From NCBI GenBank assembly GCA_012518685.1, contig JAAYRQ010000064.1, positions 1 through 42,367 of the forward strand: DNA of 42,367 bases, read 5' to 3'. The DNA is from Syntrophomonadaceae bacterium (GTDB taxonomy: Bacteria; Bacillota; Syntrophomonadia; Syntrophomonadales; Syntrophomonadaceae). How positions within the stretch are numbered: position 1 is the first letter of the stretch; every line of letters begins with the position of its first letter. The notes beneath the pieces are model-generated. The model ran no database searches. It saw only the letters and a list, made by a program, of their open reading frames with translations, and was not told the DNA's origin. Of the stretch, positions 22,341-42,367 are shown piece after piece. The translations under genes and the position numbers were made by a program.

Positions 22341-23123
22341 TTACATACCAGGCATTTTGGTAAAAACACCTCTTGGGTCAACTACATTACGCAAAATGTT
22401 TAGAACTTCATCAGAAGGTGCTTCAATATAATGTATTTCATCTGGAACAATTAATTCAAAACCTGTACAAGCTTGGGCTATTTCTACTGTCATACCAGGG
22501 TTTAAGCCTTTGATACGCATTTTCTTACTAATGGGATCAAAATCATAAACACCTACTTGGGTTATAACAGCAGTAGGCCCACCTAATAAGCCCGCTTTCT
22601 CCCTAGTATCCCCACCTTCGAGGTAGCCAGGAGTAGTAATAAAGTCAACTTTGGCTGGGAAGCGGTCAGGAGTTTGTAATCCAACTAATACGGAGTTTTG
22701 AGTTAAGGAACCAATGTCATTTCCCCCTCCACTACCAGGTAGGATGGATTTTAGATTTTCATAGCTACCTATAACGGAAGTGTTGACATTACCATACATG
22801 TCAATTTGAGCTCCACCTTGGAAAGCTATATCAACATAACCGATGGCACATTGTCCGAAAGAAATAGACATTTCCATAGACATAGGGGATTTTCTAAATG
22901 TAAAAGGACACCCTACTGACCATGGCATATCACCTTCTAGTGGGTCTTGCCCACCACTTTCATAAACCATCGTAATATTTTTAGCATGAGTCTTTTTAGC
23001 TAGCATGCCTCCTACCATAGGAAGCCCAGTTCCGACATAAACGATTTGACCATCTACAATTTCCAAAGCAATATTATAAGCTAACATTTCTAATGGATTA
23101 GCTGGTGCTACAGCAGTCATCAT
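22341..23123 (-). CDS. Glutaconate CoA-transferase-like subunit B (copy 1)
   Basis: This is a family I CoA-transferase beta-type subunit (GctB-like), which forms a glutamyl-CoA intermediate to move CoA between carboxylic acids. The 260-residue protein has the catalytic-glutamate segment MVYESGGQDP (Glu55) and glycine-rich GSGGGNDIGS. ATG codons at 23123 and 23120 are tandem; the AAGGGGG site is 4 nt from the first and 7 nt from the second. It follows its alpha partner by 12 nt and the two form one enzyme. The real substrate (glutaconate, a 3-oxoacid or another acid) cannot be read from sequence. A close paralogue lies at 27690-28472. Confidence 0.85.
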   Translation of the reverse strand: MMTAVAPANPLEMLAYNIALEIVDGQIVYVGTGLPMVGGMLAKKTHAKNITMVYESGGQDPLEGDMPWSVGCPFTFRKSPMSMEMSISFGQCAIGYVDIAFQGGAQIDMYGNVNTSVIGSYENLKSILPGSGGGNDIGSLTQNSVLVGLQTPDRFPAKVDFITTPGYLEGGDTREKAGLLGGPTAVITQVGVYDFDPISKKMRIKGLNPGMTVEIAQACTGFELIVPDEIHYIEAPSDEVLNILRNVVDPRGVFTKMPGM

Positions 23124-23135
23124 TATACCCCCTTT

Positions 23136-24182
23136 TTAATCCCATTTTGGTATTACTTCTTGGTAATTAAAATCAACTAAGGAATCGTCTATAATCAGTT
23201 GAGCAGCTTCCATTTGACGGCGTGCCTCATTAATAAAACGAATTCCTCCTAGTTTTTCTATGAATTCAAACTGATCTTTAGTGGAAAATACCCAATTGTC
23301 GAAGAAATCTTGACAGTTTTCTTCGGTTGGTGTCGCTATGCGAACTAACCACTCCCACCATTCACGAGACCAGTAGTAATGACCAGGACAACACCCAGGT
23401 AAAGCCCCATAAGGTAACTCAACCACAGCATCAACATACCAGAAAGGTATGGTACCTGTGCTATTTTCCCTTAAGGTCATTTCGGGTACAATTTTTTCTG
23501 CAGTAATAATTACTTTGCGGCAGGCTGCTGATAAGGCAATATCATTAATAGCAGGTCCTTCGATAACAGCATTACCATAGCGGTCTGCTTTTTGTACATG
23601 AATTATACAAACATCAGGAAATAGTGCTGGAATAAGAGCCACTGGTGAATTATCTGCACCAACTGGACTATCAATAACCTTTATATAAGGGTTTTGTTTT
23701 AGCATATCTGAGCCTAGAACCTGCTTAGATGCTATAAAGGGGGCTCCTAATTGGGCAGCCTTAAAACCTAATGCCATTGAACCATGGCTCCACAAGGATA
23801 CAAGTTCAGCTCTATTGGTTTTAATCATACGGGCAAAGTTTTTGTCATTACCTCGCATTTCTACACCTATGTAGGATAGATGGAGTGCATAAACAGCACC
23901 AAAAGTCATTAAGTATGAACAGTTTGACATAGGTGAACCAATTCCAACCATATTCTTCTTTTTTTGTCTAAGTATTTCAAAATACGATTGTATAGGGGAT
24001 CTTACATAGGAAAAGCCAGTTTCAGCTAAGATATCGCCATCCTCGACATAAGCTGCAATAGCTTCATTTAAAGACATTCTTTTATCTTTCTTAGAACGGT
24101 CTTTGTTTAAATGAAATTCACGAGCGCCTTTATAATCTACTAGGCGATTCATTTGCTCTTCAGTTGCAAAACGATAACTCAT
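23136..24182 (-). CDS. Glutaconate CoA-transferase-like subunit A (copy 1)
   Basis: The alpha-type partner of the gene above, 348 residues. It carries the family segments KRMSLNEAIAAYVEDGDILAETGFSYVR, WSHGSMALGFKAAQLGAPF, VCIIHVQKADRYGNAVIEGP, SAACRKVIITAEKIV and the PGCCPGHYYWSREWW block seen in this subgroup. The ATG at 24182 follows GGGAGG by about 10 nt. It is first of a two-gene operon; the 407-bp region before it holds a perfect palindrome. The paralogue at 28489-29580 shares most of these blocks, so the two pairs came from a duplication. Confidence 0.85.
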   Translation of the reverse strand: MSYRFATEEQMNRLVDYKGAREFHLNKDRSKKDKRMSLNEAIAAYVEDGDILAETGFSYVRSPIQSYFEILRQKKKNMVGIGSPMSNCSYLMTFGAVYALHLSYIGVEMRGNDKNFARMIKTNRAELVSLWSHGSMALGFKAAQLGAPFIASKQVLGSDMLKQNPYIKVIDSPVGADNSPVALIPALFPDVCIIHVQKADRYGNAVIEGPAINDIALSAACRKVIITAEKIVPEMTLRENSTGTIPFWYVDAVVELPYGALPGCCPGHYYWSREWWEWLVRIATPTEENCQDFFDNWVFSTKDQFEFIEKLGGIRFINEARRQMEAAQLIIDDSLVDFNYQEVIPKWD

Positions 24183-24589: not shown

Positions 24590-25594
24590 GTGAATTATAT
24601 TGGTTCAAAACTGTCATTATTAGATTTTTTAGAAGAAACTATAGCCAAGGTTACAGGACATAAAACAGGGAAGAAACTAGTTTTTGCGGATTTATTTGCT
24701 GGAACAGGTATAGTAGGGACGACATTTAAGAAAAAAGGATATACGGTAATCGCGAATGATATTCAACATTATAGTTATGTATTAAATAAGCATTATATTG
24801 AAAATAGCCCACCTTTAGATAAGAGCTTATTAGGGCATTTGAACTCTTTGGCAGGAATTGATGGATTTATTTATAATAATTATTGTTTAGGCTCAGGAAG
24901 TGGTAGAAATTATTTTACAGACTATAATGGCAGAAAGTGTGATGCTATAAGGCAGGAAATAGAACAATTATATGCTAAAAAAGAAATAAGCGAATCAGAG
25001 TATTACTTCTTTCTAGCTAGTTTAATCAACTCTATAGATAAGTATGCTAACACAGCCTCTGTGTATGGGGCATTTTTAAAACATATTAAAAAATCCGCAG
25101 CGAGAAAGTTCCATTTAGAGTTACTACCTGTTATTGATGGTTGCAAAAATGGTAGGGTATATAACCACGATGTTAATGACCTAATCCAAAACATATCAGG
25201 GGATATTCTATATTTAGATCCACCCTACAATGCTAGACAATACTGTACTAATTATCATGTCTTAGAAACTATTTCTCGTTATGATAATCCGACTTTATAT
25301 GGTAAAACTGGTTTAAGGGAGTATGCCGAGCAAAAAAGTGCTTTCTGTTCTAAGAGGACGGTAGAAATTGTTTTTGAAGACTTGATAGCTAAGGCGGATT
25401 TTGACTATATTTTCTTAAGTTATAATAACGAGGGGCTTATGAGCATAGATAATATTAGGGCTATTATGGAAAAGTATGGTCAGTATGACTTATTTACTAC
25501 TGATTATCGAAGATTTCGAGCGGATAAAGAGGAAAGCAGAAACCACAAGGCTTCAGCTACTTTAGAATACCTCCATTGTCTTATCAGGAATTAG
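24590..25594 (+). CDS. DNA adenine methyltransferase, D12 (alpha-class) family
   Basis: A 334-residue DNA N6-adenine methyltransferase. It starts MNYIGSKLSLLDFL (motif X-like), has SAM motif I FAGTGIVG at 36-43 and catalytic motif IV DPPYN at 210-213, separated by a region that may hold the target-recognition part. The start is GTG at 24590 with AAGGTGA 9 nt upstream. The next gene, 11 nt on, is a second methyltransferase, and a putative nuclease is convergent; together they look like a restriction-modification system with one methylase per strand of an asymmetric site. The specificity is unknown. Confidence 0.85.
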   Translation: MNYIGSKLSLLDFLEETIAKVTGHKTGKKLVFADLFAGTGIVGTTFKKKGYTVIANDIQHYSYVLNKHYIENSPPLDKSLLGHLNSLAGIDGFIYNNYCLGSGSGRNYFTDYNGRKCDAIRQEIEQLYAKKEISESEYYFFLASLINSIDKYANTASVYGAFLKHIKKSAARKFHLELLPVIDGCKNGRVYNHDVNDLIQNISGDILYLDPPYNARQYCTNYHVLETISRYDNPTLYGKTGLREYAEQKSAFCSKRTVEIVFEDLIAKADFDYIFLSYNNEGLMSIDNIRAIMEKYGQYDLFTTDYRRFRADKEESRNHKASATLEYLHCLIRN

Positions 25595-25605
25595 GTGGTG
25601 ATTAT

Positions 25606-26397
25606 ATGGCAAAATATAATGATTTGGATATGAAAAGTTGGAAACAGTATGAGGATATTTATACAGATTCTTTATGGATAATAGAAAAAAGAGATAATTC
25701 TGGTGCCCATAAGGGAGATTATCATGGTAACTTTATCCCGCAAATACCTAATCAACTTTTTCGTAGATATACAAAAATGCAAGATTGGATTCTAGATCCT
25801 TTTATGGGTAGTGGCACTTCAATTATCGAAGCCCAAAGATTAGAACGCAACTACATAGGTATAGAGTTAGATGTGGATGTGGCAACTGCAGCTAAGGATA
25901 GAATACTAAATGGAGAAAATATTAATCTGACCACAGGTAAGGTATGCATAGGCGATAGTAGGACTTTTAATATAGCTGGAATACTAGATGAAGTGGGAAT
26001 TAATAAAGTCCAATTCGTAATCTTGCATCCTCCTTATTGGGATATTATTAAGTTTACTGAACATAAGAAGGATTTATCAAACACTAAAACTATAGAAGAA
26101 TTTCTGCAGGGTTTAGGGGAGATCATCGATAATACTTGCCAGCATTTAGAAAAGGATCGCTACTGTGCCCTAGTCATGGGTGATAAATATGCCAATAAGG
26201 AGCTAGTGCCTTTAGGTTTTCGGACTATGAATTTATTTTTAGAGCGGGGTTTTATCTTAAAGGCCATTCTAGTTAAGAATTTTGAGGAGACTCGGGGTAA
26301 GGCTAATCAAAGGGCAATTTGGCGTTATCGGGCTTTAGCAAGTGATTTTTATATATTTAAACATGAATATATTTTTGTATTTAAAAAGGTAGAATAA
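25606..26397 (+). CDS. Second DNA methyltransferase (N4-cytosine/N6-adenine type)
   Basis: A 263-residue methyltransferase of the N6/N4 amino-methylase superfamily. The SAM motif I is DPFMGSGTS at about 64-72 and the catalytic motif is HPPYW at 141-145, in place of the commoner DPPY or SPPY. ATG at 25606 follows AGGTGGTGA by 5 nt; a longer frame overlapping the first methylase is not needed. Placed directly behind the D12 methylase, it probably modifies the other strand of the same asymmetric recognition site. Whether it methylates adenine or cytosine is open. Confidence 0.8.
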   Translation: MAKYNDLDMKSWKQYEDIYTDSLWIIEKRDNSGAHKGDYHGNFIPQIPNQLFRRYTKMQDWILDPFMGSGTSIIEAQRLERNYIGIELDVDVATAAKDRILNGENINLTTGKVCIGDSRTFNIAGILDEVGINKVQFVILHPPYWDIIKFTEHKKDLSNTKTIEEFLQGLGEIIDNTCQHLEKDRYCALVMGDKYANKELVPLGFRTMNLFLERGFILKAILVKNFEETRGKANQRAIWRYRALASDFYIFKHEYIFVFKKVE

Positions 26398-26418: not shown

Positions 26419-27564
26419 CTAGATGATTTTGATAAAGTTGATATGATTATTGCTTATAGTAAATCCGATATATTCTAGGGGGCTTACAAGAGTATGGGGG
26501 TGGGGGCTAGGATAACTAGCCTTACTAGCTTGGCTTAGAAAACTAGTATTATTTGTACTTAGAGCAATTATGGAGGGAATTATGTGTATTCTTTTTCCTA
26601 AGTGCAGGTAATTAGGAATCACATAATCATTAACCCATTCAATATACCAGGGAATTTGCACATCTATAATATCCTGATATGGTTCTACACATTTTAATTC
26701 TATAATCTTAAAATAAATATCCGTTTCTGACTCTTGTTTTACTAGGATATCAATTCGCTGCATACCTACTCCACAGGATACTTCATTACCTATCCAAGGC
26801 TTAATATTAGGCTGGGGTAAAAGCAGACTATTTAAGGGTAAGGTATCATAATTTTGTAATATGTAGGCTTGCAGATGGACTTCAAAGGCATTATGGCGGT
26901 TAGCCTTATGTATTAAGCGAGCGGTAATATCTAAGGAGTCTTGTCTGCCTTGGTAATTAGGCTGAATATTACAGGGAACTATGCTATCCATAGGGGCGGC
27001 AAAGGAAAAAGAAGGAGAGTTAAGTGGGCTTTGATTATTTTTAGCCTTTAACTTAGCAAGTAAATCATTAAATTCATGCTCCATAATCATAGTACAGCCT
27101 CGATTACCCTTTAATTTACGATAAATTAAGCTCCAACATAATTGGTAGGGGTGATTTTTGCCATCTAAGCTATCAAGGTATTCGTGTTCGGTAATACCTA
27201 AGGGGAAGACCATATCGGGTTCAATTTCAATCCGAAAGGATAAACCCTTTCTTAAATCGACTTTTAGATAATTATCCTCATCATTTTCATCGAAAAAGGC
27301 TCTTGAGGCAGCCTTAAAAATTCCAAAAAACATGCCTTGTCTTTGAGTGGTGGCCTGTAAGTAAAATATTATTTTATCCCCTAGCCGAATTTTAGAAACA
27401 TCGGCAATCATACCCACTAAATTTCTTTCAGTCGTACTATGTATAGCAGAGGTAGAGGGATTGTCCAAAAAGACACTCAACCTATCTTGGGCACCAGTCC
27501 CCGCAAATAAATATTCTAAGTGATATTTAAAGGTATTTTCATCAACAATAAAGACATGATACAT
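26419..27564 (-). CDS. Putative restriction endonuclease: possible EVE/PUA-like N-terminus plus NucS-like PD-(D/E)xK nuclease
   Basis: A 381-residue protein I do not match to a named enzyme. Residues about 1-95 (YHVFIVDEN, then GDKIIFYLQ and GMFFGIFKA) resemble EVE/PUA-like domains that bind modified bases; this is a moderate call. Residues about 222-315 look like a PD-(D/E)xK nuclease of the NucS/EndoMS style: Glu228, GNEV, RIDILV with Asp272, and IIELKC with Glu289 and Lys291. ATG at 27564 has GGGGTGA 5 nt upstream; the GTG at 27573 lies inside that site. It converges on the two methyltransferase genes, so it is most likely their restriction partner. Confidence 0.6.
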   Translation of the reverse strand: MYHVFIVDENTFKYHLEYLFAGTGAQDRLSVFLDNPSTSAIHSTTERNLVGMIADVSKIRLGDKIIFYLQATTQRQGMFFGIFKAASRAFFDENDEDNYLKVDLRKGLSFRIEIEPDMVFPLGITEHEYLDSLDGKNHPYQLCWSLIYRKLKGNRGCTMIMEHEFNDLLAKLKAKNNQSPLNSPSFSFAAPMDSIVPCNIQPNYQGRQDSLDITARLIHKANRHNAFEVHLQAYILQNYDTLPLNSLLLPQPNIKPWIGNEVSCGVGMQRIDILVKQESETDIYFKIIELKCVEPYQDIIDVQIPWYIEWVNDYVIPNYLHLGKRIHIIPSIIALSTNNTSFLSQASKASYPSPHPHTLVSPLEYIGFTISNNHINFIKII

Positions 27565-27588
27565 ATAATTCACCCCTGTGATTAAATA

Positions 27589-27689: not shown

Positions 27690-28472
27690 TTATTGAGGGG
27701 GAAAGGTGATAAACATTTTCTGAGGATCAACTTCTTCCCTTAATAATCTTAAATCTTCTGCAGTTGGAATTGGCGTAACTGGTATTTCATCCTCGGGAAC
27801 TAATAATTCAAAACCCGTACAAGCTTGAGCAATTTCTACTGTCATACCTGGATGAAGTGATTTTATCCTCATTCTTTTTGATTCTGGTTCAAAATCATAT
27901 ACTCCAACTTGGGTAATTACTGCCACAGGTCCATTTCCTAGTAAACCAGCTTCCCTACGGGTATTTCCCCCTGTAAGATGACCTGGACTAGTCATAAAAT
28001 CAAGCTTAGCTGGGAATTTTTCTGGGGTTTGTAAGCCCACTATAATAGAATTTTCGGTTAGAGATGATAGGTCGTTTCCTCCCCCACTACCAGTAAGCCT
28101 AGCTTTGGGTTTATTAAAATCACCTATAACATGGGTGTTTAGATTTCCATACATATCTATTTGAGCAGCCCCTTGGAATGCTACATCTACAAAACCATTA
28201 GCAGCTTGAGCAAAGGATAAAGACATTTCCATAGTAAGAGGAGCTTTTCTCCAAGTTACGGGGTCGGCTACTGACCAAGGCATAGGTCCTTCAATAGGAT
28301 CTTGTCCGCCACTTTCATAAACTAATGTAATATTTGGTGCGTGGGTTTTTTTAGCTAAAATGGCACCCACCATAGGTAAACCTGTGCCGACATATACGAT
28401 TTGCTTATCTTCAATTTGTTTAGCAACCACAAAGGCTAACATTTCTAAAGGATTAGGTTGTGCCTTACTCAT
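27690..28472 (-). CDS. Glutaconate CoA-transferase-like subunit B (copy 2)
   Basis: A 260-residue GctB-type subunit, paralogous to the gene at 22341. The catalytic Glu is Glu53 in LVYESGGQDP. Other shared blocks are YVGTGLPMVG, MEMSLSF, FQGAAQIDMYGN, GSGGGND and QACTGFELLVP, and identity by eye is around two thirds. ATG at 28472 (MSKAQPNPLEML) follows AAGGAGG by 8 nt; a longer frame reaching back over gctA is not real. It lies 16 nt after its alpha partner. The substrate is not known. Confidence 0.85.
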   Translation of the reverse strand: MSKAQPNPLEMLAFVVAKQIEDKQIVYVGTGLPMVGAILAKKTHAPNITLVYESGGQDPIEGPMPWSVADPVTWRKAPLTMEMSLSFAQAANGFVDVAFQGAAQIDMYGNLNTHVIGDFNKPKARLTGSGGGNDLSSLTENSIIVGLQTPEKFPAKLDFMTSPGHLTGGNTRREAGLLGNGPVAVITQVGVYDFEPESKRMRIKSLHPGMTVEIAQACTGFELLVPEDEIPVTPIPTAEDLRLLREEVDPQKMFITFPPQ

Positions 28473-28488
28473 TAAATATACCTCCTTG

Positions 28489-29580
28489 CTAGTCCCATTT
28501 TGGAATAACGCTAGTGTAACTAAAGTCAACACCATCGTCTTCATAGGTTAAATTAGATGCCTTTTCTAGTTTTCTATGCTGTTCAATCCAGCGAACTCCA
28601 CCCAATTTTTCCACAAATTCTAACTGGTCTTTACAATCGAAAACCCAATAATTCCAGAAACTATCCCGGGCTTCGTCTGATTTGCCTGATAAGGTTATTC
28701 TAATTCCCCACTCCCAGAATTCACGGGACCAATAGTAGTGGCCTGGACAATTACCTGGGGCGGCTCCAAAGGGCAAGTCAACTACAGCATCCACGAACAT
28801 AAAAGGAATAATATTTCCGCCAGTGTTATTCCTTAGGTCTGATTCTGGCACTATTTCTTCTGCGGTAATAATTACCTTACGGCAGGCAGAAGCTAAGGCA
28901 ATGTCATTTACGGAAGGACCGTAAATCCTAGCGTTTCCGTACTTATCTGCTTGTTGAACATGAATAAAAACTACATCAGGATGTAAGGCAGGTACTAAAC
29001 ACACAGGGTCTTTGTCCTTTTTAAAAGGATTATCAACTACTTTTACATAAGGGTTATGATTAATCATATCACTAGCTAACATAGACTTAGAGGCTAAATA
29101 GGGAGCACCTATTTGGGCTGCCTTAAAGCCTAAAGCCATTGCACCGTGGCTCCATTCAGAAAGGATATCAACTTTTTTCTGCTGCACAGAGATACTATAT
29201 GATCTATCTGTACCTCTCATTTCGGCTCCTAAATAAGAATTATGTGAGTAGGAAAATACTCCATAAGGAATGCCATAACTATGGTTCGTATTAGGTGAAC
29301 CAATTCCTTGTAGTCCTTTTTTTCCTTGTCTCATTACTTCAAATAAGGCTTGAAGTGGAGTCCGAACATAGCTAAAACCACTATCTGCATAAATATCCCC
29401 ATCAGACACATACTCGGCGACCGCTTCCTTAAGTGTCATCCTCTTGTCAACTTTGGCCCGCTCTTTTTTCAAGTTGCCTTGACGAACTGACTCCGTATCA
29501 ATAAGGCGATCCAGTATTGAAGGGTCTTTGATTTGCAGATTTTCTAGAGCAACTGGATTGTACTCAAATTTCGACTTCAT
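28489..29580 (-). CDS. Glutaconate CoA-transferase-like subunit A (copy 2)
   Basis: A 363-residue GctA-type subunit, slightly longer at the N-terminus than copy 1. It has KRMTLKEAVAEYVSDGDIY, WSHGAMALGFKAAQIGAPY, VVFIHVQQADKYGNARI, SACRKVIITAEEIVPE and PGNCPGHYYWSREFW. ATG at 29580 (MKSKFEYN) follows AAGGGGG by 6 nt; the ATG at 29598 overlaps that site. It starts the second gct operon, whose upstream region carries a spaced direct repeat. Two such operons near one another suggest two related substrates or differential regulation. Confidence 0.85.
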   Translation of the reverse strand: MKSKFEYNPVALENLQIKDPSILDRLIDTESVRQGNLKKERAKVDKRMTLKEAVAEYVSDGDIYADSGFSYVRTPLQALFEVMRQGKKGLQGIGSPNTNHSYGIPYGVFSYSHNSYLGAEMRGTDRSYSISVQQKKVDILSEWSHGAMALGFKAAQIGAPYLASKSMLASDMINHNPYVKVVDNPFKKDKDPVCLVPALHPDVVFIHVQQADKYGNARIYGPSVNDIALASACRKVIITAEEIVPESDLRNNTGGNIIPFMFVDAVVDLPFGAAPGNCPGHYYWSREFWEWGIRITLSGKSDEARDSFWNYWVFDCKDQLEFVEKLGGVRWIEQHRKLEKASNLTYEDDGVDFSYTSVIPKWD

Positions 29581-29611
29581 TCTAATCCCCCTTACCATAT
29601 ATTTACTATTT

Positions 29612-33092: not shown

Positions 33093-33183
33093 GCTAAGAA
33101 TTTTTGCATAAATTTGATATAAGTCAATTTGTTTTTTATAGAAATAGTTTATGCTAAAACCAAAAGCGGAAAGGGGTTTTAGT

Positions 33184-33492
33184 ATGACCAATGTGACCTT
33201 TGCAGAACTTGTTAAAGAAGAATTTCCTATTATAGGGCAATATACCCCCGTATTAGTAAGGGTTCATGGGGAGGCTCATCCTGAATTAGCCAGTGTTTTA
33301 GAAGTCTTTAAGAAGATAAATAAGGCCGCTAATGAAAAAAACCTGGATGAACTAGAGTTAAGAGCAAATTTTCAAAAGTTAAGGGAGATTACTCAGGATT
33401 ATTCACTACCTAGTGATGCCTGTGAGACTTACATTGAAACATATAATATGCTAGCTAGGGCAGATAAGACATACCATCTGGAAAACAATTAG
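33184..33492 (+). CDS. Small RIC-like (iron-centre repair) protein, tentative
   Basis: A 102-residue protein with the pattern VPVLVRVHG-type start (here TPVLVRVHGEAHPEL) followed by helices FKKINKAANE, FQKLREITQDYSLPSDACETYIETYNMLARAD and a final YHLENN. This resembles short proteins annotated as RIC iron-sulfur cluster repair (hemerythrin-like), with histidines in HGEAHPEL as possible ligands, but only part of the full RIC domain is present. The function is tentative. ATG at 33184 follows AAGGGG by 7 nt; a longer frame upstream is not needed. A terminator follows at 33517. Confidence 0.5.
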   Translation: MTNVTFAELVKEEFPIIGQYTPVLVRVHGEAHPELASVLEVFKKINKAANEKNLDELELRANFQKLREITQDYSLPSDACETYIETYNMLARADKTYHLENN

Positions 33493-33547: not shown

Positions 33548-33929
33548 TGCTTTTTAATTTAAGGTTAAAACTGAAAGTAAATAAAAGAAGCTGTATTCTT
33601 TTGCAAAAAAAAGTGCTACTACAACTATTATAATAGTATATGCTAGAGCCCTAAAAGGGTATTTTTAACTAATAATTCTATGGATAATAATTGTTAAATA
33701 TAATACCAAAAAAAGGGATTAGAAGCATTTAACAAAACAACTGACCATTAATTTGCTTTTTGCTAACTAAATTAAGTTCGCTATGGCTTAATAGGAAAGG
33801 ACATTCATATTATCCTAGAATATCTTAGTCAATGCTGTTATATTAATTAATAACAGGATGCGGTGCTATAATAGTAAATTGTAAATTGAAATTAGTAATA
33901 AAAAGGGAAAAGTAAAGGGTGAATTGAGG
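33548..33929. promoter_or_regulatory. Long upstream region of the Crp/Fnr gene, with promoter and inverted repeat
   Basis: A 382-bp AT-rich gap without a supported ORF. Near its end TGCTATAAT at 33864-33872 is an extended -10 without a good -35, placing a start near 33879. The inverted repeat TGTTAT-N8-ATAACA at 33836-33855 sits where the -35 would be, so the promoter may depend on a bound regulator. Confidence 0.5.
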
Positions 33930-34625
33930 ATGAAAGAACATACCAGGAGTATGGCGGATGAGTTGTTGGATACTTTTGAATTTGCACATTTGTTAAATGA
34001 CGAGCAGTTGCATAACCTAATTACACATTCTGATATCCAAGAAGTTGAGGCAGGGACGATAATAGCTGAAAAGGGATCTTATTGTCATGGTTTGGCCTTA
34101 TTATTATTTGGTCAGCTAAGGGTAGCGGTGAATTCTATAGATGGACGGGAAGTAACTATTTATAATATTAGTAAGGGGAGAGTCTGCCCTTTGTCTGCTG
34201 CTTGTGTCTTAGGGGATTTTAAAGGAAATGCGGTAACGGTTTCTGCTAAGACTGATGCGAGGGTCATTTGGGTTATGCGGGATTTTTTTGTCCGTTCTTT
34301 TGCCGAGGCGGAACCTTTTTATAGGTTTGTTATCGGGGATATTTCCAACCGCCTTTTTGAAGCGACTGAGGTACTGGATAATATTGCTTTTGTTTCAGTA
34401 AAAAAAAGGTTGGCTCAGTTGTTAGTTACGAACAGTAGGGCTGGCAAGGCTCCTATATATATAACCCATGAGGAAATAGCTAGGGAATTAGGAACGGCTA
34501 GGGAGGTAGTTAGTCGTGAATTAAAAGGCTTTGAACGGCTGGGCTTACTGGCATTATCCCGTGGACGCATAGATCTTATAGACTCAGAGAAACTAGAAGA
34601 AATTTGTCATAATGGAGTTGATTAG
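33930..34625 (+). CDS. Crp/Fnr-family transcriptional regulator with clustered cysteines
   Basis: A 231-residue regulator with an N-terminal cyclic-nucleotide-binding-like beta-barrel (about 20-125) and a C-terminal winged helix (THEEIARELGTAREVVSRELKGFERLGLL). It has Cys52, Cys86 and Cys92, the last two in RVCPLSAACVL at the effector pocket. This pair is absent from classical cAMP-binding Crp and suggests a redox, thiol or metal input. ATG at 33930 follows AAGGGTGA by 7 nt; the TTG at 33924 is too near that site. It precedes the psr-like operon by 220 nt in the same direction and is its likely regulator. Confidence 0.85.
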   Translation: MKEHTRSMADELLDTFEFAHLLNDEQLHNLITHSDIQEVEAGTIIAEKGSYCHGLALLLFGQLRVAVNSIDGREVTIYNISKGRVCPLSAACVLGDFKGNAVTVSAKTDARVIWVMRDFFVRSFAEAEPFYRFVIGDISNRLFEATEVLDNIAFVSVKKRLAQLLVTNSRAGKAPIYITHEEIARELGTAREVVSRELKGFERLGLLALSRGRIDLIDSEKLEEICHNGVD

Positions 34626-34741: not shown

Positions 34742-34845
34742 GCAACTGTACTTTAGTCACAGAAGATAAAAAATATTTATGCTAGGATAATGAAAATTGT
34801 GATATAAGGTACAAACTTTGCGGTGTTAAAAAGGGGGCAAGCTCA

Positions 34846-35907
34846 ATGAAAGATCGGATCGGAATGTTTATGCTTTTAGGATTGTCGTTTCTAATGCTTA
34901 CTCTGGCAGGGTGTTCTAGTACGAATTCATCAGTTGTATATGGTTCGGAGAGTGAAGAGCTAATTTTAGTGGAACAATTTGAGGCTGTCAGGCAAGTGAT
35001 GGATAACTTTTTCTCTTGTGGCAGGATTGTATCTATAAGAGCGGAAGATTTGCATGAAATTATAGAAGAGCAAAACGAAGATTACTATTTGGTTGACATT
35101 AGGGCTAATCAAGATTTTACTAAGAATAATATTGCTGGTTCTGTAAGTATTCCCTATGCGGAAACCCTAGATGTAAAGAAATTAGAGACCTTACCTAAGG
35201 ATAAGACTATTGTAATTATTGATTATAATGGACACCAAGCTGCCCAAACAGCGGCTACTTGGAAACAGCTTGGATATAAAACTATGCCTCTTTACTATGG
35301 GATTCAAAGCTGGACTAATGAACTAGCTGCCATTAATTATGATGTATTTCCTAGCAAACCTTTAGAATTTCCTTTAGTTACAGAAGAAGAAATATCAGTA
35401 GCAGAGCATAAGCTGCCAGAAATACTTTATCCTGAGGATGAAACAGAAGCATATATTACCCAGACAGTAAATACCTACCTTGACCGTAACTACAAGGGTA
35501 TTATTACAGCTGAAGAACTTCAGGCTAGTCTTAGTAGCGATGGGGAAAAGCAGTATATGTTAATAGATATTCGTGAACCAAAACACTATAAAATGGGGCA
35601 TGTGGAGGGTGCGATTAATATCCCCTTACACAAATTAGCTGAAATGAAAAGCCTTAAATCCTATCCTCAAGATAAGCGGATTGTTTTAATAGGTTATGAT
35701 GGTTTGGATGGAAGTCAAGCAGCTAGAGCCTTAGTTACACTGAGTTATGATGCTGTGGCCTTAAAATATGGCATGAGTTATTGGAGTTCTAATGAAACTG
35801 TAACTGGGATAATTCCTATAAATAATCAGGTTAAAGTTAGAGAAGATTACTTATTACTTCCTTTGAATTATCTGGCACCTACAACTGCTGTGGCAGGTTG
35901 TGCTTAG
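34846..35907 (+). CDS. Tandem rhodanese-like lipoprotein, apparently without catalytic cysteines
   Basis: A 353-residue surface lipoprotein: signal peptide ending in LAGC with lipidated Cys23, then two rhodanese domains (about 62-165 and 218-320) with the usual DIR start (YLVDIRANQD, MLIDIREPKHY). In each, the active-site loop CxxGxR is changed: the first reads DYNGHQ (126-131), the second GYDGLDGSQ (283-291), so neither has the sulfur-carrying cysteine. The remaining cysteines are Cys58 and a Cys at the very C-terminus (GCA). It is 22 nt before psrA-like gene, likely its operon leader. The domains may bind rather than transfer sulfur. Confidence 0.85.
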   Translation: MKDRIGMFMLLGLSFLMLTLAGCSSTNSSVVYGSESEELILVEQFEAVRQVMDNFFSCGRIVSIRAEDLHEIIEEQNEDYYLVDIRANQDFTKNNIAGSVSIPYAETLDVKKLETLPKDKTIVIIDYNGHQAAQTAATWKQLGYKTMPLYYGIQSWTNELAAINYDVFPSKPLEFPLVTEEEISVAEHKLPEILYPEDETEAYITQTVNTYLDRNYKGIITAEELQASLSSDGEKQYMLIDIREPKHYKMGHVEGAINIPLHKLAEMKSLKSYPQDKRIVLIGYDGLDGSQAARALVTLSYDAVALKYGMSYWSSNETVTGIIPINNQVKVREDYLLLPLNYLAPTTAVAGCA

Positions 35908-35929
35908 TTTTGGGTAAGGAGGTAAGCTA

Positions 35930-38122
35930 ATGCAAGCTATGACGCGTAGATCGTTTTTAAAAGCTGGAGCTGCTACTACAGCTACACTAGCAATTACTAA
36001 AAATTTAAAAATGGATTTTAATGTTTATGCCCAAGATGCAAAATCTGCTGAACTTATAAAAATCCCTTCACTTTGTAATGGATGCTCCACCTATTGTGGG
36101 GTATGGGCTTATGTTAAAAACGGTAGGCTTTGGAAGATAGAAGGTAACGAAGTTCATATGAAATCTCGGGGTCATCTATGTGCAAGAGGACACGGGATAG
36201 CCCAAAATGTCTATAATCCTGGACGAATAACCCAGCCCATGAAAAGAGTGGATAATAAAAACAATTTTAAACCTATTTCTTGGGAGGAGGCTTTTCAGGA
36301 AATAGGAGAAAAGATGCAGGATATAGTAGAGGAGTATGGCGGAGATAAAATGGTTTGGGCCTGCCATGGTGGCAAGGAGACTTATGCCAAACAATTTATG
36401 GATGTTATAGGTTCTTCTACTTATATAACCCATTATACAACCTGTTTTACTGCCAAAACTAACATTTGGTCCAATATGGCTGGGGGTATGTTCTATGCAG
36501 ATTTTGATAATGCCAAGCTTATGCTTTTCGTAGGGCGAAATTATGCAGGGGGAATTCTCCCTGCCGCTATGAAACGCATTACTGCTGCTAAAGAAAAGGG
36601 TAGTAAAATAATTGTAGTTGATCCTCGTTTTTGCGAATTAGCTACTATAGCTGACGAATGGATACCTATTCGTCCTGGAACTGATTTAGCTTTTTTCTTA
36701 GGGCTTGCTCACACATTAATTACGGAGGGACTCTATAATAAGGAATTTGTAGAGGAGTATGTCTATGGTTTTGATGAATTTTGGATGCATAACAAAGATT
36801 TCGATGCAGAAAAGGCTGCAGCAATATGCGGTATTGGGGCTGATAAAATACGGGAAATAGCTAGGCTGCTAGGGGAGAATGCTCCTAATGCCTTTTTGGA
36901 ACCTGGTTACCATGGCTTAGCCGCACATTATCAAAATTCTAATGAAATCATGATGATGAATGTTATTATTAATGCCCTTATCGGAAACTTCTGGAAGAAG
37001 GGCGGTATCTTTCCAGCTGCTACTAGCTCATTAGGTGCTCCTGAACCTACTTATTATGGACCAATTGCTCCCGAGGGAGTCAGGGCTGATGGGGCTGGAG
37101 TAGCAGGACAATACCCACTTGTCGAGCCTTCCCGAGGAATTCCTCAGCGTATTCCCGATATGATTGAAAAGGGTAAAGCTAGAATTGTATTTTTCTATTC
37201 CTATAATCCTTTGCGTTCGGCTCCCGAACCAGAATATCAGAAAAAGATAAAAAATGCCGATTTAGTTGTAAGTATTCCTTATGATTGGAATGAAACTTCT
37301 TATTATACGGCTGATTATATTTTGCCAGAAAATCATTATTTAGAAAGGGCAGAATCTCCTAAGGTGGTTAATGGACATATTTATTGGCCAGCAGCTCAAA
37401 TCGCGGCTCGTTTTAAAGCTTTACAGGCTTCAGATGATAGTCTAGCACTTTTAGATATATTAAAAGGCATAACCACCGCATACGGAATTGAAAATCTGTA
37501 TGGCTATACAGTGGAAGAAGAAATGGAAGCTGCCCTAGCACCTTTGGGAATAAGTGTAAAGGAACTTCAAGAAAAGGGTTGCATAGAGCTTAGACCAACT
37601 GTCTTACCAAAAGAAGAGGGTCTTTCCTTTAATACATTTACCAAAAAGATTGAGTTTTCTATCGGTGCTTGGAGGAAAGAGGGCTATTTGGGTGTGCCTA
37701 CTTGGGTGCCTCCTTTGGTTGTGCCTAGAGAAAAGAATGAATTTCGCTTAATTCATGGCAAGCAACCTTGGCATTCTCATATTATGACTACTAATAACCC
37801 TTATTTAATGGCTATAACTGCGGAAAAAAACGGTACTTTTATGTGGATGAATAGTAGCAGGGCTGATGAACTAGGCATTAGGGAAGGGGATTTAGTTACG
37901 ATTACGAGTGATATAGCTACTAAACAAATAAATGTTCATGTAACAGAAGGACTTCATCCAGAATGTGTTTGGTTGCCTTCCACTTATGGAACTTTCTCTG
38001 AAAAATTGAAGCTAGGGTATGATAAAGGTATTAATTACAACGATTTTATTCCTGCTCGGGTTGATGAAAAAACAGGTCATGTCATGGGACAAGAATGTAT
38101 CGTGACAATTACAAAGGGGTGA
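35930..38122 (+). CDS. Molybdopterin oxidoreductase catalytic subunit, PsrA/PhsA-like
   Basis: A 730-residue DMSO-reductase-family subunit with a Tat signal (TRRSFLKAG), so it is exported folded. The [4Fe-4S] cysteines are Cys49, Cys52, Cys56 and Cys84 (CNGCSTYC ... LCARG). The likely molybdenum ligand is Cys172 in HYTTCFTAK, as in polysulfide, thiosulfate, tetrathionate and arsenate reductases; formate dehydrogenases have Cys/Sec followed by His. The two rhodanese lipoproteins next to it argue for sulfur substrates. ATG at 35930 follows AAGGAGG by 7 nt. Acceptor specificity cannot be settled from sequence. Confidence 0.85.
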   Translation: MQAMTRRSFLKAGAATTATLAITKNLKMDFNVYAQDAKSAELIKIPSLCNGCSTYCGVWAYVKNGRLWKIEGNEVHMKSRGHLCARGHGIAQNVYNPGRITQPMKRVDNKNNFKPISWEEAFQEIGEKMQDIVEEYGGDKMVWACHGGKETYAKQFMDVIGSSTYITHYTTCFTAKTNIWSNMAGGMFYADFDNAKLMLFVGRNYAGGILPAAMKRITAAKEKGSKIIVVDPRFCELATIADEWIPIRPGTDLAFFLGLAHTLITEGLYNKEFVEEYVYGFDEFWMHNKDFDAEKAAAICGIGADKIREIARLLGENAPNAFLEPGYHGLAAHYQNSNEIMMMNVIINALIGNFWKKGGIFPAATSSLGAPEPTYYGPIAPEGVRADGAGVAGQYPLVEPSRGIPQRIPDMIEKGKARIVFFYSYNPLRSAPEPEYQKKIKNADLVVSIPYDWNETSYYTADYILPENHYLERAESPKVVNGHIYWPAAQIAARFKALQASDDSLALLDILKGITTAYGIENLYGYTVEEEMEAALAPLGISVKELQEKGCIELRPTVLPKEEGLSFNTFTKKIEFSIGAWRKEGYLGVPTWVPPLVVPREKNEFRLIHGKQPWHSHIMTTNNPYLMAITAEKNGTFMWMNSSRADELGIREGDLVTITSDIATKQINVHVTEGLHPECVWLPSTYGTFSEKLKLGYDKGINYNDFIPARVDEKTGHVMGQECIVTITKG

Positions 38123-38126
38123 AGTA

Positions 38127-38675
38127 ATGCCTAATTATGTGATGTTTATAGATCAAGATAAATGTACAGGCTGTAATGCTTGTCGCATAGCTTGTCAAAC
38201 TCAATGGGGGTTACCTCCAGAAATGAATTATAACTTTCTAATTGAACAAGAAAGAGGGAAATACCCTAATGTAGAGCGACTTATTATACCTATGCAATGC
38301 CAGCATTGTGATAATCCGCCTTGTCTAACAGTTTGCCCGACAGGTGCTACTTATAAAAGGGATGATGGCATAGTCTTAGTCGATCCTAAGAAATGTATTG
38401 GTTGTAAATACTGCATGATTGCCTGTCCGTATAATGTAAGAATTATTAATGAACAGGGAGTACCAGAAAAGTGTAGGTTTTGTGCTGAATATGTGACCAA
38501 TGGAGAAACACCTGCTTGTGTTTCAACTTGTATGAACGATGTTAGGGTGTTTGGTGATTTGGATGATCCTAATTCACCTCTGCATGATTTGCTTAAGGAA
38601 CATGAGCTAATGCAGATGAGAGAAGATCTAAAAACTAGGCCCAGAATCTATTATGCACAAAGTAAGCGGGGTTAA
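38127..38675 (+). CDS. Four-cluster [4Fe-4S] ferredoxin subunit, PsrB/PhsB-like
   Basis: A 182-residue electron-transfer subunit with four cysteine groups, CTGCNACRIAC, CQHCDNPPCLTVC, CIGCKYCMIAC and CRFCAEYVTNGETPACVSTC, enough for four [4Fe-4S] clusters. It should carry electrons from the membrane subunit to the molybdenum subunit. It lacks its own signal peptide and would be exported bound to the Tat-tagged A subunit. Only 4 nt separate it from psrA-like gene. Confidence 0.93.
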   Translation: MPNYVMFIDQDKCTGCNACRIACQTQWGLPPEMNYNFLIEQERGKYPNVERLIIPMQCQHCDNPPCLTVCPTGATYKRDDGIVLVDPKKCIGCKYCMIACPYNVRIINEQGVPEKCRFCAEYVTNGETPACVSTCMNDVRVFGDLDDPNSPLHDLLKEHELMQMREDLKTRPRIYYAQSKRG

Positions 38676-38689
38676 GGAGGCAACTGTTA

Positions 38690-39832
38690 ATGGAAATTAG
38701 AAAGTACAAGGTTAGTTTTAATACTATTATATACCTTCTCTTAATTGCTTTTGCAGTAGCTGGAGCTATTAATAAATATTTTATATCTGGTGACCATGCC
38801 TTTGGTATTTCCCCAGAAGTTCCTTGGGGAATGTTAATTTCGGGTTATGTTTTCTTTGCTGTTGCTGCAACGGGCACAGGATTTATAAGCTCCCTAGGGC
38901 ATGTTTTTGGTATTAAAAAGTTTCAAGCCCTATCTAAACAGGCCTTATTAGCTTCTACAGTATTGCTTATTACCGCCTTTGGGGTTTTAGCTGTAGAGTT
39001 ATCTAACCCTTTTAAATTAGTTTATTTGTTAATCACACCTAACTTTACCAGCCCTATTTTCTGGATGGGTTTTTTCTATGGGCTATATTTGTTTTTGCTT
39101 TTTGTAGAATTATTCTTCACTATTAAAGATAATCACAAAATGATTACTCGTACGGCTTATGTAGCCTTAGCAGTTAAACTGTTAGCTGTGACTAACCTAG
39201 GCTTTGTATTTAGTTATAGTGCTACTCGTAATTTCTGGCATGGTTATTATTACCCCATATATATGGCTGTTTCTGCAGTGGTTGCGGGTGCGGCAGTCTT
39301 ATTAATAATCCACTATCTGACTAAAAAGGGCTCAGGTAAGTTTCTCATACAGATCTCCCCAGAAACAGAATTAGCTAAGAGCCTGAGCCATATATTAGCA
39401 GCTTCTTTAGTCGTTTTTGCACTTATGCAGGCGGTAAATGTGGGCTTATCTTTGAATAGTGCTAACTTAGCGGTTGCTCAAGCTGCTAAAGCCTTAATAT
39501 CTGGACCGATTGCGATGTCTTTCTGGACTATGGAAGTTGTCATAGGTATTATTATCCCTTTACTAATTCTTTTTATAACTAAATTTTCTTCCCCAAAGAT
39601 GGCTTTTGGGGCGGGGGTATTAACTATGATAGGATTATTCTATTCCAGATTAGACTTTATCTTTGCTGGTCTAGTGGTGCCCCTACAGACTACAGATAGT
39701 GTAACTAAGAGCATCTATACAGTTAATGTCTATTCACCAACTTGGAGTGAATGGGCCTTGATTTTTGGGGCATTTGGCTTTGTCCTTTTAGTTTTTGACT
39801 TTGTTTTGAGCAAATTTTCGCTCGATGCCTAG
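38690..39832 (+). CDS. NrfD/PsrC-family membrane subunit
   Basis: A 380-residue integral membrane protein with about ten hydrophobic segments (including FNTIIYLLLIAFAVAG, GMLISGYVFFAVAATG, FWMGFFYGLYLFLLFV and WALIFGAFGFVLLVFDF). NrfD-type subunits oxidise menaquinol and pass electrons to the ferredoxin subunit. It completes an A-B-C respiratory complex with the two preceding genes, 14 nt apart. No haem-binding histidine pattern typical of cytochrome b was seen. AAGGAGG precedes the ATG. Confidence 0.92.
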   Translation: MEIRKYKVSFNTIIYLLLIAFAVAGAINKYFISGDHAFGISPEVPWGMLISGYVFFAVAATGTGFISSLGHVFGIKKFQALSKQALLASTVLLITAFGVLAVELSNPFKLVYLLITPNFTSPIFWMGFFYGLYLFLLFVELFFTIKDNHKMITRTAYVALAVKLLAVTNLGFVFSYSATRNFWHGYYYPIYMAVSAVVAGAAVLLIIHYLTKKGSGKFLIQISPETELAKSLSHILAASLVVFALMQAVNVGLSLNSANLAVAQAAKALISGPIAMSFWTMEVVIGIIIPLLILFITKFSSPKMAFGAGVLTMIGLFYSRLDFIFAGLVVPLQTTDSVTKSIYTVNVYSPTWSEWALIFGAFGFVLLVFDFVLSKFSLDA

Positions 39833-39859
39833 CCTTATCTTGAAAATGTAGGTGAAATT

Positions 39860-40507
39860 ATGAGCATAAATTGTCCTTCTCCCCAAGCCTTATGTGACTT
39901 ACTAGAGCTCTTCATAGGTTTTTTCATATTTCCCGAAAAGGAATTATATGAAGAAATCAATCAAGGGAATATTGACCTATTGATAAAAGAGCTAAGTCAA
40001 AAGGCTGGGTTACCAATAAAAAGTGAATTTCAAGCAATACCCTTAAATTATGCGGGGTGGATAGACTCTTACAACCGTTGTTTTTTAGGGGTGGAAAAGC
40101 CTTTTGCACCACCTGTTGAATCTGTATATAAAGTTTGGACCCAAGATGAAAGTTTTCAGCTGCCATTTAAAAATCAAAAAGGATATCTGATGGGGGATTC
40201 AGCTCAACATATACAACATATTTTAGATTATTTTGGCTTAGTTGTGCCAGCCGAATATAGCCTAATGCCAGATCATCTTATTATACTTTTGGAATTATTA
40301 ATCTTTCTTTTAGATAATAATTTGGAAAAGGAAGCCAAACAGCTATGTATTGACCATTTTGATTGGTTGCCAGACCTACAAATGGCTATTGCTAACCTAG
40401 CTACTGATGGAGAAATATATATTTATGCTCTGGAGATTTTGGGGAAAATCATTAAGGGCTTTGTAAATAATCCTAGCTATACTGATAGCCGTAGCGTTCA
40501 GGATTGA
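39860..40507 (+). CDS. TorD-family molybdoenzyme maturation chaperone
   Basis: A 215-residue, helical protein of the TorD/DmsD family, which binds the Tat signal of a molybdoenzyme and holds it until the cofactor is inserted. Family blocks are YNRCFLGVEKPFAPPVESVY, KGYLMGDSAQHIQHILDYF and MPDHLIILLELLIFLLD (the PDH-LELE motif region). It lies 27 nt after the membrane subunit and its client is very likely the psrA-like protein. AGGTGA precedes the ATG at 39860. Confidence 0.85.
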   Translation: MSINCPSPQALCDLLELFIGFFIFPEKELYEEINQGNIDLLIKELSQKAGLPIKSEFQAIPLNYAGWIDSYNRCFLGVEKPFAPPVESVYKVWTQDESFQLPFKNQKGYLMGDSAQHIQHILDYFGLVVPAEYSLMPDHLIILLELLIFLLDNNLEKEAKQLCIDHFDWLPDLQMAIANLATDGEIYIYALEILGKIIKGFVNNPSYTDSRSVQD

Positions 40508-40559
40508 ATTTACTCTACATAGGGTAGATTTAAATAAAAAATTTATAGGGGGATGAAGA

Positions 40560-41414
40560 ATGTTAAAAAGAACCAAATTGTTAAGTCTTTTTCTTTCACT
40601 GTTAATTGTTTTTAGTCTTGTTACAGGTTGTGGTACTCCTGATACTAACACAGAAGTGCCTGTGCAAGGCAATGTCCAAACAGGAACAGAAACCCAAGAT
40701 GTCGCACAGGATACTCATGTTCTAGCCTGGGATGATTGGTCAGCTAAAATGCAAGGCACTATTAACCAAGATTATTATGTAGTAGATTTGCGGACTCCAG
40801 ATGAAATTAAGCTGGAAAAATTCTTAGAAGGTTCTATCAACATTGATGCAAACACAACTTTAGCTACGGGGAATACGGATGTTATTGATGAAAAACTAGC
40901 AGCTATTGCCAAAGATGAACTAATCTTAATTCATTGTAAATCAGGGATGAGGGCTAAAAAGAACCTACAAATCTTCATAGACAAGGGTTATCTAAATACT
41001 TTTGCCTTAGATGCTTGGACTGCTTTTGATAGCAAGAGTTATTTTAGTGGGGCTAAAATCGATGCCAATACTGAACAAGTAAAGCCTGATGCTTGGCTAG
41101 ATAAAATGCAGGGAACTTTGGGCAAGGATTATTATATAATTGATGCTAGGGATAAAAGCGAATATGATGCTGGACATATTGCAGGTGCTTTAAATTACGG
41201 GGTTAGGGATCAATTTACCATTGATCATCCCGAGACTATAGCCAAAGTAAAAGAGGCTATCCCTAATCAGAATGACTTAATTTTACTCCATTGTGCAGTA
41301 GGGACTCGGGGAAAGGTAGCCCAAGCCCATCTCAAAGCGGAAGGATATACTAATGTAATTCTATTAGATAATAAAATTACCATTGATGCTAAGGGAAATT
41401 ATGAATTTGAATAG
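40560..41414 (+). CDS. Tandem rhodanese lipoprotein with intact active sites
   Basis: A 284-residue lipoprotein: signal peptide ending VTGC (Cys24), a flexible Thr/Gln-rich linker, then two rhodanese domains. The active-site loops HCKSGMR (Cys126) and HCAVGTR (Cys245) both match CxxGxR, so both can hold a persulfide. It would act outside the cytoplasm as a sulfane-sulfur carrier, like the Sud protein that feeds polysulfide reductase in Wolinella; that role is inferred from placement as last gene of the operon. ATG at 40560 follows a GGGGGATGA site. The other lipoprotein of the operon has lost these cysteines. Confidence 0.88.
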   Translation: MLKRTKLLSLFLSLLIVFSLVTGCGTPDTNTEVPVQGNVQTGTETQDVAQDTHVLAWDDWSAKMQGTINQDYYVVDLRTPDEIKLEKFLEGSINIDANTTLATGNTDVIDEKLAAIAKDELILIHCKSGMRAKKNLQIFIDKGYLNTFALDAWTAFDSKSYFSGAKIDANTEQVKPDAWLDKMQGTLGKDYYIIDARDKSEYDAGHIAGALNYGVRDQFTIDHPETIAKVKEAIPNQNDLILLHCAVGTRGKVAQAHLKAEGYTNVILLDNKITIDAKGNYEFE

Positions 41415-41441: not shown

Positions 41442-41477
41442 ACTAGCTACCATACATAAAGGTAGCTAGTCTTTTTT
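41442..41477 (+). terminator. Intrinsic terminator of the psr-like operon
   Basis: ACTAGCTACC (41442-41451) pairs perfectly with GGTAGCTAGT (41461-41470) around a 9-nt loop, followed by CTTTTTT. It overlaps the 3' end of the convergent GAF gene, whose stop codon is inside the stem. Confidence 0.85.
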
Positions 41478-42367
41478 ATAATCAAATAGTAGGGAAAGCA
41501 TATCCTTGGTATTTTTAAGGGATAAAAACTGGTACTCTTCAACATATTTACTGAGTTGGTTTTTAATCGTTATTTCCTCTAGCGGTGATATAATAACACC
41601 TACATCAGGAAGAAGTACAAATCCCTCTGACCATTCTCTACAAGCTATTAATACTTCTTGTGGGTTTGGATGGTGAAATCGCACTATGTTTGGGTTTAAT
41701 CCCAGATCTAACATTTGTTCAATTTCTTTAGTCATACGATGAGAAATTAGTAATGGGTAGTTAATTATACCTTCCCTAGATATGGCGTTTTTTTCTAACA
41801 AATTAGTAAAGGTCTCCCCTATGATAAGGGAAATTATACGCAAAACTTGTAATTTATCAGCATCATCAATAGTTGAATTGGAAAAATCGTGAATGAGAAG
41901 ATAGCCTTGAATAGAAGTTTGCTTAGTAATAGGAAAAACTAAAGTCGGCAATAATTTGTCACCTAGGGGTAAATTGTATATGTCGTCACTTGATATGTGA
42001 TAAAGTTCGGGAAATAAGTGATTATAGGTATAGTTGGAATTGGAGTAAACGATAAAATAATCAGAATTATTTTTAGCAATGATGGCGGCACTTTTAACAC
42101 CTAGACCTAATGTTAGTATTTCCAATAATAATTGACCAAATTGCTCAATGTTATCCGCATTCCTAATTGTGCTAAGGATTTCTTGTATAGCGTATAGGTT
42201 TTGTAGGCTATTATATAGCATTAGGCTTTTTTCATTTAGCTCATTTAAGATTAGGCTATTTTCTATGGCAATACATATAGAGGCTAGCAGCAAAGTGAGT
42301 AATTCTTTATCCTCATCACTATAAACTTCTCCTGTTACGCGATTAGATAAGCTAATAAAACCATAAT
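41466..42367 (-). CDS. GAF-domain protein (partial, N-terminus off the right edge)
   Basis: About 300 residues are visible and the frame is open to the window edge, so the N-terminus is missing; an internal TTG near 42293 is not the true start. The upstream residues GFISLSNRVTGEVYSDED and ELLTLLLASICIAIEN are the end of a GAF domain. After a linker helix (about 20 residues) a second region resembles another GAF-like fold (GVKSAAIIAKNN). The C-terminal 90 residues (LDLGLNPNIVRFHHP onwards) do not match a family I know. It is convergent to the psr-like operon and may be a sensory regulator, but no DNA-binding domain is visible. Confidence 0.6.
   Translation of the reverse strand, partial: YGFISLSNRVTGEVYSDEDKELLTLLLASICIAIENSLILNELNEKSLMLYNSLQNLYAIQEILSTIRNADNIEQFGQLLLEILTLGLGVKSAAIIAKNNSDYFIVYSNSNYTYNHLFPELYHISSDDIYNLPLGDKLLPTLVFPITKQTSIQGYLLIHDFSNSTIDDADKLQVLRIISLIIGETFTNLLEKNAISREGIINYPLLISHRMTKEIEQMLDLGLNPNIVRFHHPNPQEVLIACREWSEGFVLLPDVGVIISPLEEITIKNQLSKYVEEYQFLSLKNTKDMLSLLFDYKKD

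Follow-up and report, generated by a model that had tools for sequence, protein, structure and literature searches.

The selenite reductase (Srr) operon of B. selenitireducens MLS10 reportedly has the gene order E-A-B-C-D-F (srrEABCDF), as attributed to Wells et al. 2019. Its subunits are of 80 (A), 17 (B), 43 (C), 24 (D), 38 (E) and 45 kDa (F), with E and F being rhodaneses, and this selenite reductase is the one characterised member of the Srr clade (PMC12481199); rhodanese genes near SrrA are regarded as indicative of selenite reducers (PMC8528874). In Desulfitobacterium hafniense DCB-2, Dhaf_1508-1513 comprise two rhodanese genes plus Mo, 4Fe-4S, Psr-type and TorD genes, for which a ~40-fold induction, specific to Fe(III) citrate, was reported; the authors considered them an Fe(III) reductase candidate and made no connection to Srr (PMC3306737). 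No paper tying Dhaf_1508-1513 to Srr was found, nor was, in the literature, an enzyme assay for members of the Desulfitobacterium-type subclade delineated below. To our knowledge, the classical psr operon does not harbour a flanking rhodanese pair. The Mo/FeS/NrfD architecture and the Cys ligand of Mo are nevertheless shared with Wolinella PsrABC/Sud and T. thermophilus PsrABC (2vpw). In Geobacter, a rhodanese lipoprotein (ExtH) together with the ExtI porin is likewise linked to selenite handling, yet via a cytochrome/porin conduit devoid of a Mo enzyme (PMC5877670, PMC8981825).

Gene content and surroundings of the operon

Six ORFs, all on the + strand of the window (that is, the whole 42,367-nt stretch of Syntrophomonadaceae DNA analysed here) and separated by intergenic gaps of 4-52 bp, are located at 34846-41414. 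A srrE-like gene for a lipoprotein with two rhodanese domains (34846..35907; 353 aa; Pfam, alignment and AlphaFold2 model) is followed by those for a srrA-like, Tat-exported Mo-bisMGD catalytic subunit (35930..38122; 730 aa; Pfam, NCBIfam, tree and Mo-site signature), a srrB-like four-[4Fe-4S] ferredoxin subunit (38127..38675; 182 aa; ferredoxin families in Pfam), a srrC-like, putatively quinol-oxidising membrane anchor of the NrfD family (38690..39832; 380 aa; Pfam NrfD, E value 3e-22), a srrD-like TorD-family chaperone (39860..40507; 215 aa; Pfam Nitrate_red_del/TorD type) and a srrF-like lipoprotein whose two rhodanese domains are Cys-active (40560..41414; 284 aa; Pfam). Direct reading identified the lipoboxes LAGC in E and VTGC in F and four Cys clusters in SrrB, which is 52-80% identical to its clade homologs. 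The gene set described in the initial annotation, with a Cys-ligated, Tat-exported Mo subunit, a four-cluster ferredoxin, NrfD and TorD between two rhodanese lipoproteins, was confirmed by ORFs, Pfam and motifs. The arrangement is not due to chance, as it recurs in 25 further loci; the operon is real, conserved and functional-looking. Its layout, which had been put forward as a sulfur relay, is however not new but the published srrEABCDF one, described also in D. hafniense in 2012. Further features beside those already annotated are an upstream Crp gene, two operator-like boxes and a penultimate Cys in SrrE.

The Crp/Fnr-family regulator (33924..34625, + strand; Pfam) is 68-70% identical to the product of the same-place gene in the two closest loci (L183 and L184). 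An operator-like box (TGTGACTAAAGTACA; 34747..34761, − strand), identical in L183 and L184, and a second one of the same motif in the opposite orientation (TGTGATATAAGGTACA; 34798..34813, + strand) are both conserved ahead of the operon in the three loci that have the Crp link (the window, L183 and L184), and are candidate sites of the adjacent Crp-family protein. A promoter scan was uninformative (19 found versus 28 expected).

The operon adjoins dnaA, gyrAB and parAB and is thus chromosomal, next to the replication origin of the host; a contaminating or stray contig was ruled out, as the same 42-kb contig carries dnaA, gyrAB, parAB and gidAB. Several other loci in the window were noted. CoA-transferase subunit genes in two paralogous pairs (22341-24182 and 27690-29598, − strand) flank D12-class and N6/N4 DNA methyltransferases (24590-26397) and an unassigned 384-aa ORF (26419-27573); this stretch near the origin resembles an insertion island and is possibly a restriction-modification unit. 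Two genes upstream of the operon, a 113-aa ORF (33151-33492, + strand) matches only the C-terminal part of the Fe-S repair protein RIC/ScdA, and convergent with the operon is a partial 299-aa ORF (41466-42365, − strand) with no Pfam or NCBIfam match.

For comparison with the type operon, genome G102 was taken as B. selenitireducens MLS10, because one of its proteins is identical over 382/382 residues to PDB 4ktp, which we take to be the MLS10 glucosylglycerol phosphorylase. An MLS10 enzyme of this family is described in PMC3899277. The G102 operon encodes proteins of 38.4, 82.2, 19.9, 43.1, 24.2 and 46.0 kDa in E-A-B-C-D-F order. The window and MLS10 operons share the six genes, their order, the subunit types and near sizes except for F, with their SrrA in one clade, yet SrrF has two domains (284 aa) in the window and three (421 aa) in MLS10, both CGGxxC domains being missing from the former; moreover, the window SrrE has neither loop Cys whereas MLS10 SrrE keeps one, and a Crp gene adjoins the window operon. 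With Dhaf_1508-1513, which were matched to the window operon by gene-type description, the likeness is at the level of gene types, while L183 and L184, probably from Desulfitobacterium, are identical in layout to the window, including the Crp gene and the two-domain F.

Clade of the Mo subunit and transfer of the cluster

The window SrrA features the Pfam domains Molybdopterin, Molydop_binding and Molybdop_Fe4S4 plus a weak TAT signal, and direct reading revealed the Tat motif TRRSFLK, Cys49/52/56/84 of the proximal cluster and, supported by the Mo-site alignment, Cys172 (codon 36443..36445, + strand) as the Mo ligand; a Tat leader, one 4Fe-4S site and a Cys ligand are all present, as in the Srr type. 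Among solved structures this subunit is closest to T. thermophilus PsrA, and the NCBIfam model that fits it best is PhsA (NF012032 equivalog), with 371.9 bits being below the curated cut-off of 694 bits; the scores for ArrA (140 versus a cut-off of 1600 bits) and TtrA (59.7 versus 1750 bits) are below their cut-offs too. NCBIfam, the structure match and the tree each place this Cys-ligated subunit nearer to PsrA/PhsA than to ArrA/TtrA. Among named genomes, the best matches (52-56%) are from Negativicutes, Clostridia and Bacilli, including Mesobacillus selenatarsenatis SF-1.

In a maximum-likelihood tree of 82 Mo subunits (from a short search, with branch support given by SH-aLRT only), 24 sequences that include the window and MLS10 (G102) form an Srr clade with an SH-aLRT of 100 and a long stem; the window SrrA is sister of L183/L184 and 53% identical to that of MLS10. 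When the 24 Srr rows were compared with the 19 nearest outgroup rows, the Mo-ligand Cys was kept in all of both (24/24 and 19/19), and the surrounding signature TCFxxKTNxW was confined to the Srr clade. T. thermophilus PsrA is outside the clade, with LCTAPREV at the Mo site as opposed to CFTAKTNIW in the window. The assignment of the operon to the Srr family is firm and leaves little room for doubt. A firm grouping of the Mo subunit with a non-sulfur enzyme, named beforehand as counting against the proposed sulfur relay, is largely what is seen, as the subunit falls inside a clade whose single biochemically characterised member is a selenite reductase. SrdA, the selenate reductase of SF-1, was set aside as a counterpart: it is grouped with TtrA and encoded in a published srdBCA operon, while the SF-1 locus L036 is a full Srr-type operon and the ArrA-type proteins of SF-1 fall far outside the Srr clade.

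Linkage to rhodaneses is a property of the whole clade. Besides the window, a rhodanese gene was found upstream in all 25 clade loci and one or more downstream in all 24 that were readable, but no rhodanese gene was found at the nearest outgroup loci (Mo subunit 36-42% identical). The lipoprotein-A-B-C-TorD-lipoprotein order, for which a search in other genomes had been proposed, was recovered at most loci of the 52-56% matches, with a few having C and D rearranged or undetected, or F split. The view of a Psr/Phs-family respiratory complex with two co-occurring rhodanese lipoproteins is thus upheld, as a conserved unit in 25 further loci. Outside the clade, several loci with Mo subunits of 36-42% identity (L021, L195, L199, L201 and similar) adjoin YedE/TusA sulfur-import genes without a rhodanese, which suggests that these are sulfane-sulfur enzymes; L186 is an Srr-clade locus that also has YedE/TusA upstream. 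Two loci from the host's own family (L026 in G030 and L027 in G012) harbour a Cys-active tandem rhodanese lipoprotein ~3.5 kb downstream of a Mo subunit and beside a gene of the LysR type; this association of Mo enzyme and rhodanese is an independent one, and the two loci were set aside as their Mo subunits are 30% identical and outside the Srr clade.

The two closest genomes (L183/L184; SrrA 79-81% identical) have the entire cluster in common with the window, Crp gene and two-domain F included, yet their GyrB is only 64% identical to that of the host, as compared with 74-76% within the host's own family, where no close SrrA homolog was found. The host's gyrB thus lies elsewhere than with the genomes closest in SrrA, and the cluster was transferred between families; these identities and the missing family homolog rule out inheritance within its own family. 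From the absence of the gene in the host's family, we infer the direction of this transfer, with a Desulfitobacterium-like lineage as the donor. The genomes of L183/L184 themselves appear Desulfitobacterium-like, because candidate places for Mo enzymes number 57-72 in them and the neighbours are the same as those described in DCB-2. The known Srr layout is therefore present here as a horizontally acquired, Desulfitobacterium-type variant.

The two rhodanese lipoproteins

At the two rhodanese catalytic-Cys positions, the window SrrE has Asp126 and Gly283, while SrrF has Cys126 (CKSGMR) and Cys245 (CAVGTR). The idea of one catalytic and one non-catalytic lipoprotein thus holds in the window (no loop Cys in E and two in F) but not in general, since most SrrE from Bacilli, unlike that in the window, keep one loop Cys. 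The window SrrE is 58-60% identical to its L183/L184 homologs, and SrrE has two rhodanese domains, or one in L032/L033. The AlphaFold2 model of the window SrrE, built with the 26-sequence alignment (pLDDT 85.8), features two confident rhodanese domains, and a PDB fold search returned generic rhodaneses only.

The C terminus of SrrE carries Cys352 (codon 35899..35901, + strand) as the penultimate residue, within a stretch (residues 349-353) that is modelled as a disordered end (pLDDT<50). In the 26-sequence alignment a tail Cys is penultimate in 17 and antepenultimate in L185. Loop Cys are wholly absent in SrrE of the window, L183, L184, L032 and L033, and all five keep the tail Cys; conversely, the eight SrrE without a tail Cys each have at least one loop Cys, so that every SrrE has a candidate carrier thiol. 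This complementarity is suggestive and not proof, because the loop-Cys losses represent few independent events. The penultimate Cys of most SrrE, on a tail modelled as disordered, is apparently undescribed. In the cytoplasmic carriers DsrC/TusE, a penultimate Cys is located on a flexible C-terminal arm; the likeness of the SrrE tail is analogy only, as the folds are unrelated.

In most members, SrrF has three domains, of which the first two carry the loop CGGxxC and the third another Cys loop, whereas both domains of SrrF in the window and L183/L184 resemble the third domain of canonical SrrF. As L183/L184 have the same form, the two-domain SrrF is a subclade variant; two-domain second lipoproteins are also found in clade members L030, L031 and L034. 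The window SrrF departs from the MLS10 size feature (~45 kDa, three rhodanese domains) with its 284 aa and two domains, a feature that describes the type operon and is no stated definition of the family.

Rhodanese is able to hold selenium as perselenide (Ogasawara 2001, as cited in PMC5877670). E and F of Srr operons probably handle the reduced, zero-valent chalcogen. A Sud-like polysulfide shuttle, as originally proposed, becomes one of several possible roles. By analogy, we tentatively consider SrrE as a degenerate tandem rhodanese that, tethered to the membrane, works as a scaffold; its penultimate Cys, carried by a flexible arm, might accept Se(0) or S(0) at the Mo site and hand it to the Cys-active SrrF, although the chance of this specific scheme being right is modest.

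Substrate, rival readings and host biology

The best explanation, which we hold to be probable but well short of certain, is that SrrABC, with D as chaperone and E and F as lipoproteins, forms a respiratory complex of the Srr type that came from a Desulfitobacterium-like donor. SrrC would oxidise menaquinol, and electrons would pass via the four SrrB clusters and the single SrrA cluster to the Mo with its Cys ligand, which would lie outside the membrane and there reduce a chalcogen compound, most likely selenite to Se(0). E and F would be anchored on this outer side as well and may pick up the zero-valent product, which is sticky, in the form of protein-bound per(seleno)sulfide to remove it; were polysulfide or sulfur the substrate, they would deliver it instead. 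Selenite as the substrate here is only the leading choice. Counting against this explanation are the membership of the window in a Desulfitobacterium-type subclade, with 53% identity to MLS10 SrrA, a two-domain F and a linked Crp gene, and the Fe(III)-specific induction of the matching D. hafniense operon, with its proposed role as an Fe(III) reductase.

A polysulfide or S(0) reductase with E and F as Sud-like sulfur-delivering carriers is the less probable but still serious competitor, being consistent with T. thermophilus PsrA as the closest solved relative, with PhsA as the top NCBIfam family (although at 372 of 694 bits) and with YedE/TusA genes often adjoining the next clades and found upstream of the Srr-clade locus L186. 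It would also account for the induction by Fe(III): the latter would oxidise sulfide, and the enzyme would reduce the S(0)/polysulfide so formed, making the effect an indirect one; such a sulfur shuttle could in turn reconcile a selenite-type operon with that induction. The separate, strongly supported Srr clade with its changed Mo-site motif, and the naming of its single characterised member as a selenite reductase, argue against a polysulfide enzyme. A role in Fe(III) respiration, with the complex of Desulfitobacterium and its recipients reducing Fe(III) directly or as a chelate, is improbable: the ~40-fold, Fe(III)-specific induction of Dhaf_1508-1513 and the lack of multihaem cytochromes in D. 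hafniense favour it (PMC3306737), yet the medium and electron donor in that experiment differ from those of the pyruvate reference (PMC3306737, Table 2), rhodaneses have no rationale in Fe(III) reduction and orthologs are present in selenite respirers. Given the catalytic diversity of the wider family (PMC10100899), another oxyanion (tellurite, tetrathionate or arsenate) or operation in the oxidative direction can be envisaged, but the ArrA and TtrA scores (140/1600 and 60/1750 bits) and the distant position of the SF-1 ArrA-type proteins make this very improbable.

Selenite respiration would be compatible with other genes of the host. One host contig carries MqnP, UbiX, UbiD, polyprenyl synthase and TatC genes, and a SelD match with one in-frame TGA (G000:C78:21341-22261) is probably selenocysteine-containing, which would make the host a selenium user; together these make menaquinol, Tat export and selenium use plausible. 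The host's only rhodanese match outside the operon is a CoA-disulfide-reductase-like gene with a C-terminal rhodanese (L216; G000:C12:2225-3868), and in L183/L184 a rhodanese-bearing gene similar in length to L216 is located directly upstream of the Crp gene.

What is new comprises the clade markers, the tail cysteine of SrrE and the link to an Fe(III)-induced operon. Through this link, work on the selenite reductase of MLS10 and work on the so far unexplained six-gene operon that Fe(III) induces in Desulfitobacterium come to concern a single type of operon. A respiratory chalcogen reductase is thereby placed, via horizontal transfer, in a syntroph of the Syntrophomonadaceae type. Testable markers for distinguishing Srr from Psr/Phs in genomes are the Mo-site signature TCFxxKTNxW and the SrrE tail Cys in penultimate position, and the operon also offers a testable idea for how an insoluble product exits the enzyme. 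If the carrier reading of SrrE is true, then together with the Desulfitobacterium-type operons it would imply one relay for the respiration of selenite, sulfur and, via a sulfur shuttle, Fe(III).
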